From: Acidobacteriaceae bacterium
GTDB lineage: Bacteria > Acidobacteriota > Terriglobia > Terriglobales > Acidobacteriaceae
Assembly (NCBI GenBank): GCA_003134435.1
Contig: PLBE01000091.1
Coordinates: 540-43,508 of the forward strand
Length of the DNA: 42,969 nt
Direction of reading: 5' to 3'
Shown here: piece by piece, positions 13,199-21,236 of the stretch
How positions within the stretch are numbered: the first letter of the stretch is position 1
Layout: the number at the start of each line of letters is the position of its first letter
Notes under the pieces: model-generated
The model's database searches: none
Told to the model about the DNA's origin: nothing
What the model saw: the letters and a program-made list of their open reading frames with translations, nothing else
Program-made: the position numbers and the translations under genes

Positions 13199-14926
13199 TT
13201 AGAAGCCCGCTTGGGCGGTGATCCCTTTGCCTTCTACGCACTCATAAGCCCGGCCGCCTGCGAGGTTCTTGTATTCTTCCGTTCTCCCACTCGGCCAGAC
13301 GACGACCAGACGATCGACCTTATCTCGCTTCCCCAGCCCGAAAGTCACTGGGAGTTCGGACTGCGACAGATAGCTGGACCCGCCTTTGACCAGACGCGAT
13401 TGGCTGGATCCGGCGGAATAAATCTTAACCGCGGCACCGATGGCGTCGCGGTTCGACTTGGTCCCGACCAGCCGAATCCGGATGCTCCGGTTCCCAGCCG
13501 TCTGGTCGTTGCGGTAGAGATACGCGGGACCGTTGTTAGAGGTGATCAGCAGATCCAGATCTCCGTCGCGATCGAAGTCTCCATAGGCAATCCCACGTCC
13601 CACCTTTGGTTGACTGAAGCCCCCTCCAATTTCGGCCGCCACGTCGACAAAAGTTCCGTTACCGCTGTTGAGAAAAAGCTGCGGTGGCTGCGCATAGCCC
13701 ACGCCGCTGACATTGCGCACGGTGTCGTCGATGTGGCCGTTCACCACCGCCAAGTCGAGCGCGCCGTCCAAGTCGGCATCGAGAAACACGCATCCGAATC
13801 CTAATTTGTCTTTCGACGCCAACCCCACTCCGCTGGGCATCGCCACGTCAACATAATTTCCGCCATCGGACAACCGGTAGAGCCCGGTCATTTCGTTGTC
13901 GAAGTTCGTGATAGCTATGCCCGGGTTTCCTGAATTGTCGAAATCGGCCACGTCGACGCCCATGCCAGCGCGCGCCCTGCCTTCCGCGGAGAAAGCGATG
14001 CCGGCCTCGACGGCTACGTCCTTGAACGCTCCGTTGCGCTGATTTCGATAGAGCTTGTTGGGCTGCGTGTCATTGGTCACCAGCAAATCGGGCCAGCCGT
14101 CGTGATCGTAGTCGAGCATAGCGACGCCGAGCGATTTTGAACTGCTGTCGAAAATTCCGCTGGTCGCCGTCACATCTTCAAAGGTCCCATTACCGCGATT
14201 GCGAAACAGCCAACAGGTTTCTCCGCGATAGGCTTCAGGTGTGCAATACGATTTGTGCTTACCGTCCAGGCTGCAAAATACGTCATGCTCGGGGGACCAC
14301 TTGACGTAATTACAGACAAACAGATCCAAAAGCCCGTCGCGATCGAAATCAAACCATAGTGCGGAAGTACTCATCGCCTGCCGCCCGCTTAAACCGCTCG
14401 ACTTCGTAACATCGACGAACGTTCCCTTGCCCGTATTTCTGAAGAGCCGGTTTTGTCCGACGCAGGTGATCAGAATGTCGGCCCAGCCGTCGTTGTCGTA
14501 ATCTCCGACCGCAACACCCATGCCATACATTTCAAGATCGAGACCGGCGCCACGGGTCACGTCGGAAAACGTGCCGTTGCGATTGTTACGATAGAGCTTA
14601 AGCGTGCTGGGTTCCGGTCGATGATCCCGTTTATGTCCGGGCCAATCAACGCCGTTCACCAGCAGAATATCTTGCCAACCGTCGCCATCGTAATCGAAGA
14701 ATGCGCAACCGGCGCCGAGCGTTTCCGGCAGCAACTTACCGCCGTAAGCGCCGCTGTTGTGACGGAAGTGAATTCCAGACGGGACGGTTACATCCACCAA
14801 CCGGAAGCCCGGATTCGATCTGCGAGAATCAGCGGAGGGGGCGGGAGTAGTCGCGAACGCGTCTGACAGCAATCCTGACGTCGAGGCCAAGCCGGCCATT
14901 CCCCAGAGAAACGATCGACGATTCAC
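13199..14926 (-). CDS. CRTAC1-family protein, FG-GAP/VCBS repeats with C-terminal ASPIC/UnbV domain
   Basis: A 575-aa exported protein. The N-terminus MNRRSFLWGMAGLASTSGLL carries a twin-arginine (Tat) signal. It is followed by several FG-GAP units with calcium-binding Asp loops (DYDGDGWQDILLVNG, DYDNDGWADILITC, DFDRDGLLDLFVCN, DYDHDGWPDLLVTN, DFDRDGDLDLLITS), consistent with a seven-bladed propeller. The last ~80 residues (IRLVGTKSNRDAIGAAVKIY ... VVWPSGRTEEY) are the ASPIC/UnbV domain. The start overlaps the response-regulator stop by 4 bases (ATGA), so it is translationally coupled to a two-component system. This family is often exported together with TonB receptors in Acidobacteria; its ligand is unknown. 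Confidence 0.93.
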   Translation of the reverse strand: MNRRSFLWGMAGLASTSGLLSDAFATTPAPSADSRRSNPGFRLVDVTVPSGIHFRHNSGAYGGKLLPETLGAGCAFFDYDGDGWQDILLVNGVDWPGHKRDHRPEPSTLKLYRNNRNGTFSDVTRGAGLDLEMYGMGVAVGDYDNDGWADILITCVGQNRLFRNTGKGTFVDVTKSSGLSGRQAMSTSALWFDFDRDGLLDLFVCNYVKWSPEHDVFCSLDGKHKSYCTPEAYRGETCWLFRNRGNGTFEDVTATSGIFDSSSKSLGVAMLDYDHDGWPDLLVTNDTQPNKLYRNQRNGAFKDVAVEAGIAFSAEGRARAGMGVDVADFDNSGNPGIAITNFDNEMTGLYRLSDGGNYVDVAMPSGVGLASKDKLGFGCVFLDADLDGALDLAVVNGHIDDTVRNVSGVGYAQPPQLFLNSGNGTFVDVAAEIGGGFSQPKVGRGIAYGDFDRDGDLDLLITSNNGPAYLYRNDQTAGNRSIRIRLVGTKSNRDAIGAAVKIYSAGSSQSRLVKGGSSYLSQSELPVTFGLGKRDKVDRLVVVWPSGRTEEYKNLAGGRAYECVEGKGITAQAGF

Positions 14927-15552
14927 GGAAGATCGACCAACCCATTGCGGATCGCGTAAACCACCAACTCGGCTGCCTTGTGGATTCCCAAAGCGTCCAT
15001 CATATTGGCACGATGCACGGCGACGGTGTTGGCGCTAAGGTCGAGCACGGTGGCAATCTCTTTATTCGACTTGCCATCCACGATCATTTGCAGCACTTCG
15101 AGTTCTCGCGGAGTCAGCGCGGCGTGCCGCTTGCCCTTCAGGGTTTCGGGACGCTTCAGTTGCGAATCAAGCACGGTCTCGCCCTTCGCAACCCGCCGGA
15201 TGGCCGCACCCAATTCCAAGTCCACCGCATTTTTTAGGACATAGCCGCGAGCGCCGGCTTCCAGTGCCTGACGCACCAGAGTCTCCTCGGGATGCATACT
15301 GAGCATGAGCACCAACGCGTCGGGATGTCTTCCCATAATCTGACGGGTCGCTTCCAGCCCATTCATGCCGGGCATCGCGCAATCCATGACGATCACGTCC
15401 GGGCGAAGCTCGTCGGCGAGTTTGACGGCTCCGACACCATCACTCGCCTCGCCGGCAACTTTGATATCAGGCTCATCCTCAAGAATGCGGCGGAAACCGC
15501 GCCGCACCAGGGTGTGGTCGTCAACCAGCAAAACTGAAATTCTATCCGCCAT
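14923..15552 (-). CDS. NarL/FixJ-type response regulator (LuxR HTH)
   Basis: A 209-aa two-component regulator. The receiver domain has the acidic pair LLVDDH, the phospho-acceptor Asp in VIVMDCAMPGMNGLEA (about residue 57), and Lys in RGYVLKNA. A GerE/LuxR helix-turn-helix follows at ~140-200 (ALTPRELEVLQMIVDGKSNK, EIATVLDLSANTVAVHRANM). It overlaps the 3' end of the kinase gene; the ATG at 15552 is preferred over a TTG nine bases upstream. It is paired with the kinase and presumably controls this transcription unit or distant targets; the CRTAC1 gene overlaps its stop. Confidence 0.95.
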   Translation of the reverse strand: MADRISVLLVDDHTLVRRGFRRILEDEPDIKVAGEASDGVGAVKLADELRPDVIVMDCAMPGMNGLEATRQIMGRHPDALVLMLSMHPEETLVRQALEAGARGYVLKNAVDLELGAAIRRVAKGETVLDSQLKRPETLKGKRHAALTPRELEVLQMIVDGKSNKEIATVLDLSANTVAVHRANMMDALGIHKAAELVVYAIRNGLVDLP

Positions 15553-16927
15553 GGGACTCAAGCTTCTCTCTTGGAACGGTCAATCGAACCAGGGTTCCTT
15601 TGCCACCTTCACCGGGCGCGGGACGGACGAAGTCAACCGTACCGCCCATCAACTCCGCGCGTTCGCGCATCGCCACCAGGCCGATTCCCTGCTTGGCGGC
15701 GGGCGCGTCAAAACCCCTGCCGTGATCTTCGACTTCAACCTCCAACGCTCGCGGCATGAATCGAAGCCGCACCCAGGCCTCTTTCGCTCCCGAGTGCCGG
15801 GTCAAATTATTTAGAGCTTCCTGCACCACGCGATACACGTGAATGGCGGCGTTGCCATCAACGGGAAAAGACTCACCCGATTTTTCATAGGATACGTGAA
15901 TCCCCGCCTGCCTTTCCACTACCGGCAAATACCAGTCGAGTGTGCTCTCCAGGCCAGTCTCCTCCAGCATCACGGGATGCAGGGCCTGCGACAGGCTGCG
16001 CACTTTGTCCAGCGCGCTTTGCGTGATTTCACAAACTTCGCGTACTTCGGCGCGCAGTTCCGATTTTTCCGGAGCCTGGTTGCCTGCCCTCGTCAACATC
16101 ATCCCCACCGCCGTCAGAATCTGCCCAAACTCATCGTGCAATTCGCGCGAGATATGCCGCAACGTAGATTCCTGGGTGGCAATCAGCTTCTGGGCAAGTT
16201 CGCTGCGCTGCGCGGAAAGCGCCGCCAGTTGGGCAAACAAGCGGCGATTAGAACGGATCAGATAGAGGCTGGTAAAGAGAATGGCAATCAGGGTCGCAGT
16301 CAGGAACAAATACACCTGGCGCTGGACCCGGTCATAGATTTGTCCAATGCGCAGCGCAGCTTGCTCTTCACTTTCATTGTTCTGCACCAGCAACCTCGAC
16401 ACGGCGGTGCTCAGCGCTTCTTGCCGGGCTCGTAGAGAGATTTGAATCTGGATTCGGGCCTCCGCCTGCTTGGCGCCTTGAGCCAACACAAAAGTCCGAT
16501 CCGCGGCATCCCAAAACTGGCCGACAGAAGTCTCCAGGTAGCGCTCCTGTTCGGGGGTACGATTCACCGGCGCGACCTGTTGCTCCCGACGCAGCGCGTC
16601 ATCCAGGTCCGTCCGTACACGTTGGAATTGCGCCGACCATGCCGTCAGTGGATAGGGCTCGTCGTTGTCTAACATGTCGCGCATCGCCAGCGCCAGCGAA
16701 TTCAAGTCATTCTGAATGCGCAGCAATTGCAAAGAATCTTTCCGGTTGCGGTCCACCAGATTATTCTGCAATTCGCGCAAGCCGGAGAGCTGCCGCGTGA
16801 TGTATCCCGAGTAAACCACGACGGCCGCCAGCGTAATGATCAGCCCTAAGAATAGCTTTGGAGTCGGAGACCGATGGGGCGCAGGCGAACTGAACGCGGA
16901 CGAGCGTGGCACGCCCCGAGAATACAA
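15542..16927 (-). CDS. Membrane sensor histidine kinase, HisKA_3 type
   Basis: A 461-aa kinase. There are two membrane segments (about residues 25-45, LFLGLIITLAAVVVYSGYI; and about 210-230, VYLFLTATLIAILFTSLYLI). They bracket a ~165-residue mainly helical periplasmic sensor domain resembling CHASE3-like input domains. The dimerisation/phosphotransfer box is ISRELHDEFGQILTAVG, with phospho-His near 263. The HATPase domain has QEALNNLTRHSGA (N box), VEDHGRGFD (G1) and GIGLVAMRERAELMGG (G2). It lies directly between the selenoprotein gene (10-base gap) and its response regulator (overlap), strongly suggesting one unit that senses a redox- or ligand-linked signal. The stimulus is unknown. Confidence 0.94.
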   Translation of the reverse strand: MYSRGVPRSSAFSSPAPHRSPTPKLFLGLIITLAAVVVYSGYITRQLSGLRELQNNLVDRNRKDSLQLLRIQNDLNSLALAMRDMLDNDEPYPLTAWSAQFQRVRTDLDDALRREQQVAPVNRTPEQERYLETSVGQFWDAADRTFVLAQGAKQAEARIQIQISLRARQEALSTAVSRLLVQNNESEEQAALRIGQIYDRVQRQVYLFLTATLIAILFTSLYLIRSNRRLFAQLAALSAQRSELAQKLIATQESTLRHISRELHDEFGQILTAVGMMLTRAGNQAPEKSELRAEVREVCEITQSALDKVRSLSQALHPVMLEETGLESTLDWYLPVVERQAGIHVSYEKSGESFPVDGNAAIHVYRVVQEALNNLTRHSGAKEAWVRLRFMPRALEVEVEDHGRGFDAPAAKQGIGLVAMRERAELMGGTVDFVRPAPGEGGKGTLVRLTVPREKLESHGG

Positions 16928-16937
16928 CGCGGACCGC

Positions 16938-17684
16938 CTAATCTGCCAACCTCCCCAACGCCGCCCGCAATTCTTCAGACTTAAATCCGAAGGGTCCTGG
17001 TTTGGCCTTGTACGCGATGTGTCCTTGGGCGTCGATCAGGTAAAGCCGATCCGGCCAGCCCGTGTACGCTTGCTCGGTCGAGTTTCCGAATTGATCGATC
17101 ACCGCGGGAATCTGGATGCCCAACTTTCGCACGCAAGCTCCAGCCACCAGCGCACGCTCCTCTTCGTCCTTCGGGCTGGCAAAAACAACCTTGTCTTTGA
17201 CGTTGCTCTCCATCTGCCAAACGTCGCTGGGATGTGCTTCCGTGATGTACACGACCAGGAACGAGACCTTGGTTCCGTATTGCTCGTAGAGTTTATTGAG
17301 AGCGGGCACCTCCCGCCGGAAGGGCGGTCAAGTGTAGCTACCGAAAATCAGCACTACGGGGCGTCCTTGCGCGGTCAGTTGCGAAAGTCGCACTGAGGCG
17401 CTCTTGTCGAGCTTCATCAGCAGAAAGTCGGGCGCGGGATCACCAACGTGCAAATTGCCGGCACGAGCCTGGGTCCATAACGTCTCAAATGGGAAGAGCA
17501 AGAATGGGACCGGACCCGGCAATTTCGCCATGAAGTGCGCGAAGGCTTCCGGCGGCTGCCGCATGATTCGATAGAGCGCGCCGCACCCCAGCACCCATAA
17601 CAACAGAATCACGACAAACGTTCTGAACAGTATTCGCTTCGTCAACATCTCTCGAACCGTCAAGCACCCTCCGCCAATGAACAT
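16938..17684 (-). CDS. Deiodinase-like/thioredoxin-fold selenoprotein, TGA read as selenocysteine
   Basis: Two open stretches in the same frame (17684-17331 and 17327-16938) are separated only by a TGA at 17328-17330. Across it the product reads IFGSYT-U-PPFRREVPALN, the active-site motif of the iodothyronine-deiodinase-like redoxin family (GSxTUPPF). An N-terminal membrane anchor (FRTFVVILLLWVLGCGALY) precedes the thioredoxin fold, which continues on both sides: HVGDPAPDFLL before, VSFLVVYITEAHPSDVW and YTGWPDRLYLIDAQGHIAYK after. Total length is 248 residues including Sec (about residue 119). Starts are uncertain: ATG 17684, TTG 17663 with GGAGG upstream, or ATG 17648. A SECIS-like hairpin follows the TGA. 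The likely role is a membrane-tethered thiol/selenol oxidoreductase facing the periplasm. No iodothyronine chemistry is claimed. Confidence 0.85.
17301..17317 (-). promoter_or_regulatory. Bacterial SECIS-like hairpin for selenocysteine insertion
   Basis: On the minus strand, 16 bases after the TGA, GGCGGG (17317-17312) pairs with CCCGCU (17306-17301). This gives five Watson-Crick pairs plus a G-U pair, enclosing the loop AGGUG. Loop sequence and distance mirror the Escherichia coli fdhF SECIS (17 bases, loop AGGUCU), where SelB contacts the GGU. This supports recoding rather than termination. Confidence 0.75.
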
Positions 17685-17713: not shown

Positions 17714-20700
17714 TTAGAACAGGAACTTCAATGCCACTTGGATTTTCCTCTGACTTACATCCGATTGGATTTGGCCAAAGGTGGGCGATTCAATATCGCT
17801 GACTGGCAAACGGAAATTGGTGTGGTTCAGCACGTTGAAAAACTCGCCCCGAAACTGAAATTCTTTCGATTCCGTCAGTCGAATGTTTTTGAACGCCGAG
17901 AAATCCCAATTCACATACCCCGGGCCCTGGACCGCGTTGCGCCCTTCATCCCCGAACTGCTCGACGGGAGAATTCGGATCCTGGGTTATTTTCTGGAACG
18001 CGCTTACGTTGAACCATTCCGCCGCAGTACGCGGCCCCGAGTTTGGATTCCCAACAACGTTGGGCCGGTTGCTGGAAAACCCAGAGATCTCCGGCGCCTG
18101 CCCCTGCAGTGAAACATCGTTCGAGTCGAATACCGTGAAAGGTGTGCCGCTCATCGCCGTCAAGATTCCATTCAACTGCCAGTTGCCCATCGCCTTGCCG
18201 TACCAGTTGCTCGAATGCTGCAAAAAGGGTAGGGCCCACTGATAACTCAGGACGAAACGATGCCGGGCATCGAACATGGACCGTCCGCGCTCCGCCGCGA
18301 GATCGAAGGGATCCTGGGCCAGATCGTTCTCTCCCGCCACGGGCTGAGAAGCCGACCCTGTGATATTAAAAGAGGAGATGTCATCGATGGAATGCGACCA
18401 CGTATAGGACACGAGGAGAGACAGACCGTGGCTGAAGCGCTTTCGCAGGCTGGCCTCCAGAGCGTTGTAGCTGGAATTGGCGATGCTGGCGATTTCGCCC
18501 ACCGAACTATAAATGCAGTTTGTCGGTTGCTCCAGGGTGCATCCGGAATAGAGACGACGCTCGTTTACGTTGTCCGCCGCCGTTGTCGAGTTTGGGTTGC
18601 CATTTGCATCGAAGCCTGGAACATACACTGGCGGATTGCCCTCGATGAATCGCGGCAATCTTACACCGGTAGTGCCCACATACCCGACTTGCAATAGCCA
18701 GTCCACGCCAAATGACCGTTGCACATTCAGATTCCAATCCTGCGCGTAGGGTAGATGCAGGCTGCGCGAGACGACCAGCAACGTCATCGGCTCAGGGAAA
18801 GGCACTCCGAAAGGATCGGGGCTATAAAACGGATTGGCAAATGAGTTCACCGGGAAACCCAACTGCAGGGTCTTCAAGTAAGGAGGTGTGCTGATGGGAT
18901 CCTGCAGCGGGCCGCCCTGTCCAGTGTAGTAAGGCTCGTAGAAGATTCCGTAGGCGGCGCTGACTACCATTTTCGAGTCGCCCCGCGGATCCCACGCAAC
19001 CCCTAATCGTGGAGCGAAGGCGGTTTTCTCAACATGGATCAAACCGGCCGGCACACCGGGATCGCCGGGATAGAGCAACCCCGCCGGAGCGCCGGGAATC
19101 ACCCTCGATTGCGCCCCGGGAACAAACAGATTCACACGGTTCTTGTTCTCGGTGGCGGGAAAAGGCAACTCGTAGCGGAGTCCAAAGTTCAACGTCAGAT
19201 GGGAAGTGACTTTGTATGTATCCTGGCCGTAGAGATCGACGGCCCGATCGCGGATCTCGCGACCAAAATCGCCTCCGCCTTGCAGAAACACCACCGGTTG
19301 CCCTTCCAGGAAGCTGGCAAATGGGTCGCTGAAGGGAAAGCCCGCGAATACAAAGAAGCCGTTGGTGGCGATACCCTGCAAAGCATTCATCTGGTCGCGC
19401 CGGTACCCTCCGCCAAATTTCAGTTCGTGGCGGCCCTGGATCCTGCTCAGAGTGCCGGAGAGATCAAACGTGTTTTGAAACGTGTCGCGGGGTCCTGTAA
19501 TCGGGTCGCCAACCGAGGAGTAACCCGACACCTGCACGAACGGCGGCCCGACAGCCGAAGCCAATGTGGGATCGTACTGAAAACCCAACTGCGACGGCGA
19601 CTCGTGATTGAGATGCTCGCCCAGCAGGAACTTATTGCGCAGATATGAAAAACGCATGATGCCGATTGTGGCCGGCGAAAATACGTGGGTCTCCTGCACA
19701 ACAAAGTTTTGGGCGCGATCGTCTTCGCCCACGGGAAAACCGGGGACATTTGCGCCTGCGGTCGAAAGTGGATCCGTCGTTGGACCGCCGCTAAACATGT
19801 AGCGGAAATTCAACGTATCCGCATGAGATAAATAATGGTCGACGCGAAATCCGAATTGGTCGTTGCTCTGGCTTAGCGTCTGCGTGGTTATAAAACCATT
19901 GAACCCGTCATTCGGCATCGGGAAAAAGGGCAGGACATTCGCGGCGGTTGGATCGATATAGGTTAGCTGGTTGTTGGGGACCGGTTGGCCAGTCAAGTAA
20001 TTGATAAGTGGCGCTACCTCCGCGAAGTTGCCTTGCCTTTCAGCCAGCGAGGGCACGGTTGCACCAACGGTTTCGCCCTGCCGGTTTCGGAAGCCTTCGT
20101 AATATCCGAAAACAAAAGTCTTGTCCTTAAAAATCGGGCCGCCAAACGTGGCGCCAAACTGGTTTTGCTTCAGGGGCTGGACGCTGCGCGAGAAAGAGTC
20201 GGCCGCGTCCATCGCGTCATTGCGCAGAAACTCCCAGAGAGCGCCATGAAATGCATTGGTTCCGGAGCGCGTGATGATATTGGTGGTCGAACCTGTGTTC
20301 CGTCCGAACTCCGCGTTCGCGTTGTGGGAGAGAATCTTGAACTCGGCGATGGCGTCGATCGGTGGTTTCAGAACGAAACCCGCGTCCACTGCGTTCACAT
20401 TGTCAGCACCGTCGATCAGAAAATTGTTCGACTCCGGCCGTTGTCCGTCGACGGCATAGGCCTGACCGTCGCGCGCGGATCCTCCAGCCTCCAGCAGTCC
20501 AGGGGTCAAGGGCATGACACCAGGCTGAAGCGTCCCCAACTGGAAGAAGTTGCGCCCGTCGAGCGGCAGATCGAGAATCTCGCGCTGCATCACGGTTTCT
20601 CCGAGGCTGCTGACCGTGCTTTGCACTAACTGGGCATCCGCCTTGACTTCAACTTGCTGCGTCTCCGCGCCCAGCTTGAGGTGTACGTTGACCGTCGCAG

Positions 20701-21004
20701 TCTGGTTCACGCCCAGAGTAATTCCTTCCTGCCGATACTTTTGGTAGCCCTTGGCTTCAACTCGAATTTGGTAATGGCCGATCGGCAATTCGAGGAGGAC
20801 ATACTCGCCCCCACGATTCGTAGTTGCCGAGCGCTCGAGCCCGGTTTCGTTTTGTTGAGCCACGACCACGGCTGACTGGAGCACGGCGCCGCTGGGGTCA
20901 ACCACGGTGCCGCGAATGCTTCCGGTGATTTGCTGCGCAGCAACCTGCATACCTGCAAGTAACAATGTAAGCAGCATGCAAGCCAAGCTGTTTCTGTAGA
21001 TCAC
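17714..21004 (-). CDS. TonB-dependent receptor, Oar-like, with carboxypeptidase-regulatory domain
   Basis: An outer-membrane transporter of nearly 1100 aa. The signal peptide (NSLACMLLTLLLAGMQVAAQ) fits a GTG start at 21004 with AGGAG upstream; a longer frame begins at a GTG at 21034. The residues after cleavage (ITGSIRGTVVDPSGAVLQSA, then LELPIGHYQIRVEAKGYQKY) form a CarboxypepD_reg β-sandwich. The plug follows (LPLDGRNFFQLGTLQPGVMP, NNFLIDGADNVNAVDAGFVL, GRNTGSTTNIITRSGTNAFH), then the 22-strand barrel ending QRKIQVALKFLF with terminal Phe. This Oar-like class is abundant in Acidobacteria and takes up large, often carbohydrate-related ligands. It is first in the minus-strand unit with the selenoprotein, two-component system and CRTAC1 protein. 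Confidence 0.95.
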   Translation of the reverse strand: MIYRNSLACMLLTLLLAGMQVAAQQITGSIRGTVVDPSGAVLQSAVVVAQQNETGLERSATTNRGGEYVLLELPIGHYQIRVEAKGYQKYRQEGITLGVNQTATVNVHLKLGAETQQVEVKADAQLVQSTVSSLGETVMQREILDLPLDGRNFFQLGTLQPGVMPLTPGLLEAGGSARDGQAYAVDGQRPESNNFLIDGADNVNAVDAGFVLKPPIDAIAEFKILSHNANAEFGRNTGSTTNIITRSGTNAFHGALWEFLRNDAMDAADSFSRSVQPLKQNQFGATFGGPIFKDKTFVFGYYEGFRNRQGETVGATVPSLAERQGNFAEVAPLINYLTGQPVPNNQLTYIDPTAANVLPFFPMPNDGFNGFITTQTLSQSNDQFGFRVDHYLSHADTLNFRYMFSGGPTTDPLSTAGANVPGFPVGEDDRAQNFVVQETHVFSPATIGIMRFSYLRNKFLLGEHLNHESPSQLGFQYDPTLASAVGPPFVQVSGYSSVGDPITGPRDTFQNTFDLSGTLSRIQGRHELKFGGGYRRDQMNALQGIATNGFFVFAGFPFSDPFASFLEGQPVVFLQGGGDFGREIRDRAVDLYGQDTYKVTSHLTLNFGLRYELPFPATENKNRVNLFVPGAQSRVIPGAPAGLLYPGDPGVPAGLIHVEKTAFAPRLGVAWDPRGDSKMVVSAAYGIFYEPYYTGQGGPLQDPISTPPYLKTLQLGFPVNSFANPFYSPDPFGVPFPEPMTLLVVSRSLHLPYAQDWNLNVQRSFGVDWLLQVGYVGTTGVRLPRFIEGNPPVYVPGFDANGNPNSTTAADNVNERRLYSGCTLEQPTNCIYSSVGEIASIANSSYNALEASLRKRFSHGLSLLVSYTWSHSIDDISSFNITGSASQPVAGENDLAQDPFDLAAERGRSMFDARHRFVLSYQWALPFLQHSSNWYGKAMGNWQLNGILTAMSGTPFTVFDSNDVSLQGQAPEISGFSSNRPNVVGNPNSGPRTAAEWFNVSAFQKITQDPNSPVEQFGDEGRNAVQGPGYVNWDFSAFKNIRLTESKEFQFRGEFFNVLNHTNFRLPVSDIESPTFGQIQSDVSQRKIQVALKFLF

Positions 21005-21236
21005 GCAGTTCCCCACTCCTGGCAAATAGTTCACGTTGCTCGATTAGGCTCCCCACGAACGTGTAAATCTGCGCGAAGAAATTTAACAACCAGTGAAGTG
21101 CCGTGATTATAGGGAGACACACCTGTAGGTCAATAATGCGAAAGAAGTATGTTGGACGGGCTGCAGGGGTACGCTCAGGTTCGGCTTGGCATTATCCGAC
21201 AACTGCCGTCTCGGGACGAATATCTTCCGGCGAGTG

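Follow-up and report, generated by a model that had tools for sequence, protein, structure and literature searches.

The minus strand of the window, by which we mean the whole stretch of 42,969 nucleotides of Acidobacteriaceae DNA that was analysed (contig PLBE01000091.1), very probably encodes a selenoprotein of the T4_deiodinase family, as judged from its sequence and from its relatives. A TGA codon within the reading frame is predicted to specify selenocysteine in the active site (Table 1). The TGA is kept at the same codon in most relatives, the half of the gene downstream of it is clearly under selection as protein, a SECIS-like hairpin follows it, and the recoded product matches the deiodinase family.

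Table 1. Features of the minus-strand gene run around the predicted selenoprotein gene (positions in the window)
Feature	Position	Strand	Remark
Oar-type outer-membrane protein (CarboxypepD_reg + OMP_b-brl_4)	17714..21034	-	upstream, about 30 bases off
Deiodinase-like selenoprotein gene (predicted)	16938..17684	-	248 aa recoded; 236 aa if the start is ATG 17648
In-frame TGA, predicted selenocysteine 119	17328..17330	-
SECIS-like hairpin GGCGGG[AGGUG]CCCGCU	17301..17317	-	comparative evidence across Sec relatives
HisKA_3 sensor histidine kinase	15542..16927	-	directly downstream
Response regulator (Response_reg + GerE)	14923..15561	-
FG-GAP / ASPIC-UnbV repeat protein	13199..14926	-	end of the co-oriented run

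The gene and its in-frame TGA

The upstream open frame runs on the minus strand from 17684 to 17328 (118 amino acids, coordinates including the stop) and closes with the TGA at 17330-17328, past which the same frame runs on to a TAG at 16938. The original prediction had joined these two same-frame stretches into one selenoprotein without naming a strand; the join is borne out and the strand is minus, a plus-strand reading being rejected as it holds more stops and gives no such product. A mechanical ORF list splits the gene into two ORFs of 118 and 123 amino acids, the second from a GTG. In the recoded product U119 stands within FGSYT-U-PPFRREVPALNK, so that the motif at the selenocysteine site is U-P-P-F and the +3 position has no Cys. 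The start is uncertain: in 22 relatives the first query residue covered by the tblastn match ranges from 4 to 41, mostly 10-16, and ATG 17648 (residue 13) is a possible alternative.

Altogether 52 places were examined, namely the window gene, 29 loci from a search of the phylum and 22 from named genome contigs. The 29 are the best matches among 396 genomes of the phylum, weaker matches staying out of the alignment, and two of the 52 places repeat the same genomes. The residue aligned to position 119 is selenocysteine (TGA) at 42 places, Cys at eight and Thr at one, and one place does not cover it. Homologues that ended at this site and lacked a conserved C-terminal half had been named in advance as evidence against the prediction; what we find is that the homologues read on through the site and that the C-terminal half is conserved. 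The Thr form (FGSSTTTNF, L054 in genome G338) is a possible loss of the redox residue. A distant relative (L053, genome G246) has a UxxC form, GSFT-UPYC, with a hairpin of its own. A general reassignment of TGA was considered and is ruled out, since TGA is the ordinary stop of 5 of the 15 window ORFs checked, two of which carry Pfam domains (response regulator, adenosine deaminase).

A SECIS-like hairpin after the TGA

Counted from the TGA, the stem of the hairpin begins at 11 nt and the loop at 17 nt. The 6-bp stem and AGGUG loop of the original prediction are confirmed, with one correction: the sixteen bases that it placed between TGA and stem in fact precede the loop. Taken alone, the window hairpin is not significant. 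In a synonymous-codon control 10% of the re-codings are as good (p 0.10), the fold z-score is -0.39, and free-energy folding favours a competing CCGCC/GGCGG hairpin.

At the level of the family the hairpin is clear from comparison. Among 39 distinct Sec sequences the stem is paired in register in 79.5% of cells, against 48.7-58.6% in six slid controls, a comparison that favours the tested stem because it was derived from these same sequences; in eight Cys/Thr sequences the values are 41.1% and 32-54%. Less open to this bias is the finding that in the Sec relatives six of the seven stem pairs have changed on both sides while standard pairing is retained. The synonymous control is beaten at the 0.05 level by 26 of the 39 Sec sequences vs none of seven Cys sequences, and 13 of the 39 fail to beat it; as a simplification, this control applies the codon usage of the window genes to all loci. 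The hairpins of distant relatives differ in sequence (GAAGATC[GGT]GATCTTC, CCGCTC[GGTC]GAGCGG and GGATGGC[GGC]GCCATCC). The mark of a bacterial SECIS element, a small apical loop with a G shortly behind the UGA, is found across the family, and the window copy by itself does not stand out. In the mechanism that we propose, SelB would deliver Sec-tRNA at the UGA as the hairpin arrives at the ribosome.

Selenocysteine machinery and distribution in the phylum

The search for selenocysteine machinery had been set beforehand as a test that could refute the selenoprotein, and the genome of the window holds all of it: a tRNA-Sec with anticodon tca, which scores 68 bits against a gathering score of 47, together with selB and two copies each of selA and selD. 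One of the selD copies has an in-frame TGA at the codon that is Cys in its counterpart. The genome holds two sets of Sec genes, on contigs C3 (L011, L019, L020), C99 (L021, L022), C125 (L018) and C228 (L010). On C3, selD (the Cys form), selA and selB lie together, with only the start of selB present before the contig end cuts it; the second selD, with the Sec codon, selA and selB are each on separate contigs. Either duplication or contamination (estimated at 4.42%) may account for the two sets.

Among 14 control genomes the Rfam cut-off for tRNA-Sec is passed in five and the selB cut-off in two. In the genus of the window selB is over its cut-off in 21 of 24 genomes and tRNA-Sec in 22, at 65 bits or more in 20 of the 24; the remaining two matches, at 47-49 bits, lie near the score of the own genome's tRNA-Ser (46). 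Because nearly all genomes of the genus carry the machinery, its presence is not specific evidence for the gene, and within these 24 genomes it does not track the presence of the deiodinase-like gene. Nine of the 24, the window's genome included, have a close orthologue, with at least 65% identity along most of its length, and two more have pieces of one.

Over the phylum a PF00837 match is found in 38 of 396 genomes, 30 of them over the cut-off, Cys forms included, so the earlier statement that such proteins are known in "a few bacteria" understates their spread. In a search of 50 genomes selB is over its cut-off in 28 of 30 that have PF00837 (drawn from the 37 besides the window's own) and in 3 of 20 that have no match (Fisher 1.6e-8), a comparison from which kinship is not removed because the 20 controls are all of the window's family. 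One Sec-type genome in 950 contigs (G242) has no selB over the cut-off. By protein, the nearest relatives come from Acidobacteriaceae assemblies with the labels fen, bog and palsa, which suggests a soil or peat habitat for the window's genome too. A plasmid search returned three distant matches.

Family, active site and probable reaction

The recoded product aligns to PF00837 (T4_deiodinase) with 122.4 bits (E 2.4e-35, curated cut-off 27), and the family named in the original prediction is therefore the right one. Scored alone, the part after the TGA gives 82 bits and the part before it 13. Among solved structures, mouse Dio3 (8.5e-25) and Dio2 (5.4e-23) match the sequence best, and the same two enzymes are the two best Foldseek matches of the predicted model (mean pLDDT 80.7). 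The model has a thioredoxin/peroxiredoxin-type domain after an N-terminal hydrophobic helix; residues 18-36, the most hydrophobic stretch, are likely a membrane anchor.

For the tree and the residue counts, 45 of the 52 bacterial rows were used. The rows dropped are L069 and L073 (from the genomes of L036 and L040), L070 (N), L075 (frameshifted range), L043 (duplicating the context of L044), L052 (partial, with two TGA) and L076 (residue 119 not covered). The two mouse enzymes stand beside four distant Acidobacteriota Sec rows at a weak fork (77/97), and the mouse pair lies, on a long branch, inside a set of eight Sec rows and the two mouse rows (95/94); because its sampling comprises two animal rows and otherwise Acidobacteriota alone, no origin is drawn from this tree.

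What would such a protein do? We propose that the N-terminal helix would anchor it in the inner membrane so that the catalytic domain faces the periplasm, that the selenolate of Sec119 would attack an electrophile (peroxide, disulfide or organic halide), and that the oxidised Sec119 would be re-reduced by a thiol. The protein is probably a periplasmic selenol peroxidase or reductase. For the reaction itself, a peroxidase or thiol reductase is the likelier choice over dehalogenation; an activity outside all of these is unlikely.

Dehalogenation deserves consideration by analogy with the animal enzymes: Sec119 might remove the halogen from an environmental halogenated aromatic, as animal deiodinases do with iodothyronines. 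We divided the rows by the PPF and GP segments into a type-1 set of 33, the window included, and another set of 12 (Dio3 numbering throughout). Selenocysteine is present in all 33 type-1 rows, and the other 12 have Sec in four, Cys in seven and Thr in one. Tyr197, Glu200, His202, Asp205 and Arg260 are kept in 33 of 33 type-1 rows, Asp or Glu stands at 259 in all of them and Trp207 in 32. Asp205 and Arg260 are nearly lost from the other set (0 and 1 of 12), which counts for the dehalogenase, but Tyr197 and Glu200 (12 of 12) and His202 (11 of 12) are kept there too and are therefore no mark of dehalogenation. According to PMC11592359, His202 is implicated in substrate binding in the Dio enzymes, and Arg275 together with the Glu-Arg pair 259-260 is proposed to position thyroid hormone at its amino-carboxylate end; the Dio2 residue numbers of that paper were transferred to Dio3 by us. 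By contrast, no type-1 row (0 of 33) has the His219, Cys239 or Arg275 of Dio3, and none has Lys at 275 either. Two details resemble Dio1 and argue for the dehalogenase: the place of Phe258 is Pro in all type-1 rows, as in Dio1, and the place of Arg275 is Pro in 25 of 33 with Lys or Arg just before it in 21 of 33, like the Lys-Ala/Pro/Ser of Dio1. A neighbour with a tryptophan-halogenase domain at one distant locus also points that way, but it is the only hint of halogen chemistry among 27 neighbouring proteins scanned, and bacteria are not expected to contain thyroid hormones (PMC1088965). The type-1 rows retain the reaction centre and just part of the thyronine clamp, in line with another substrate, and we regard a true reductive dehalogenase as unlikely. 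Position 184, which is Cys in 25 of the 33 type-1 rows, might be considered as a candidate resolving Cys.

Genomic neighbourhood

Five co-oriented genes with short gaps, from 21034 to 13199, follow in the order Oar-type protein, selenoprotein, histidine kinase, response regulator, ASPIC/UnbV protein. The gene had been described as embedded in a receptor/two-component unit, and its redox activity could serve, or be fed by, the Oar-type protein, with the two-component pair joining in the genus. An Oar-like protein is indeed the nearest upstream same-strand ORF of at least 100 amino acids in 5 of 39 loci vs 7 of 317 other ORFs (p 0.005), and for ORFs of at least 150 amino acids in 7 of 38 vs 5 of 270 (p 1.3e-4), p values that are not clean because the loci are related. 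But in 31 to 34 loci the upstream neighbour is another one, and direct adjacency of the kinase is limited to the window, L055, L056 and L058, one gene intervening in L057. The receptor half of the claim thus recurs more widely, although in a minority of loci, and may be meaningful; the two-component half is local, and a conserved two-component unit is rejected, its kinase adjacency being limited to close relatives. That the gene works as part of a receptor unit seems to us rather improbable.

The 27 neighbouring proteins scanned comprise eight window genes and 19 in relatives, and these 19 share no common pathway. In a distant genome of the phylum the first gene upstream of a type-1 gene encodes a protein with a Trp_halogenase domain (L086:8679-11141); the domain is absent from the other 18 scanned neighbours of relatives.

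Selection downstream of the TGA

Between the window and nine close relatives, dN over the 120 codons after the TGA is 0.04-0.15. The ratio dN/dS after the TGA is 0.03-0.09 in eight of the nine comparisons, dS being saturated in the ninth (L062), and these ratios are rough because dS is high (0.74-2.9 where computed). In all nine, dN is lower in the 120 codons after the TGA than in the 40 before it. These values bear on whether the TGA is a working stop, the product being a truncated protein of 118 amino acids with occasional readthrough. Other window ORFs use TGA as an ordinary stop and bacterial selenocysteine insertion is inefficient, both of which would suit such a stop, but it would cut the fold at the active site, and the codons behind it are the better kept ones; we hold this reading to be highly improbable. 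Still less credible, and rejected here, is a pseudogene or sequencing error that turned a Cys codon into TGA and left the halves as relics: a single locus with two ORFs split by one stop would permit it, but 42 of the 52 places have TGA in this codon position, the downstream dN/dS is below 0.1 in eight of nine comparisons and the hairpin pairs have changed on both sides.

Relation to known deiodinases and selenoproteins

The selenoprotein predicted here is a new member of the bacterial deiodinase-like selenoproteins, a family already known in bacteria. Such proteins were reported from the Sargasso Sea in 2005 by Zhang and co-workers, with Cys forms and bacterial SECIS elements, and were said to serve probably another redox function (PMC1088965). 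A count of bacterial deiodinase-like selenoproteins was given in 2008 (PMC2398784), in a table that gives no motif, and two reviews list the motif as UxxC (PMC9312934, PMC13188914). For Acidobacteria, four selenoproteins of three families are described (PMC1794560), and for one acidobacterium three known selenoprotein genes (PMC12013277); in the passages of open-licence literature covered, we found no report of this acidobacterial deiodinase-like branch. Ordinary ORF finding cuts such genes in two, which makes the branch easy to overlook. More of the animal deiodinase active site is retained in it than one would expect from the UxxC motif of the reviews, and it offers a bacterial protein for the direct study of older deiodinase chemistry, be it that of a peroxidase or of a dehalogenase. 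A bolder idea is that the Acidobacteriota hold an always-Sec, membrane-anchored branch of deiodinases proper that dehalogenates environmental halo-aromatics, that selenium-based dehalogenation by this fold would predate thyroid signalling, and that the animal deiodinases would descend from such enzymes or have a common ancestor with them; we consider it unlikely.

With the known bacterial members the predicted protein shares the PF00837 domain, the Sec codon (a predicted active-site selenocysteine), a bacterial SECIS after the UGA and Cys forms in the wider family. It differs from the form given in the two reviews, its UPPF having no Cys in the UxxC sense, whereas UPYC occurs in the relative L053. 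Its fold and weaker family matches also resemble AhpC-TSA/Redoxin peroxiredoxins and ResA-type thiol oxidoreductases; unlike these, it has no CxxC and carries a deiodinase-type EAHPSDxW loop and a GPFG segment.

The SECIS element of E. coli fdhF has a six-pair stem with a bulged U and an AGGU loop that lies 17 nt after the UGA. The window hairpin is like it in the six-pair stem, the AGGU loop and the distance of the loop, and unlike it in having no bulged U; compared with fdhF, most relatives of the window's branch have a three-base loop GGU and one more pair. In the animal deiodinases the element lies in the 3' UTR, whereas the window hairpin is in the coding region.

In alignments to the animal enzymes themselves, identical residues number 59 of 162 to mouse Dio3 (4tr3) and 53 of 166 to Dio2 (9h48). 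The window protein lacks His219, Cys239 and Arg275 of Dio3, and has Tyr at the place of the proximal Cys168 and, as in Dio1, Pro at that of Phe258. As in animal deiodinases, an N-terminal hydrophobic segment is followed by the catalytic domain, and with the two mouse enzymes it shares Sec-P-P-F, Tyr197, Glu200, His202, Asp205, Trp207 and Arg260.
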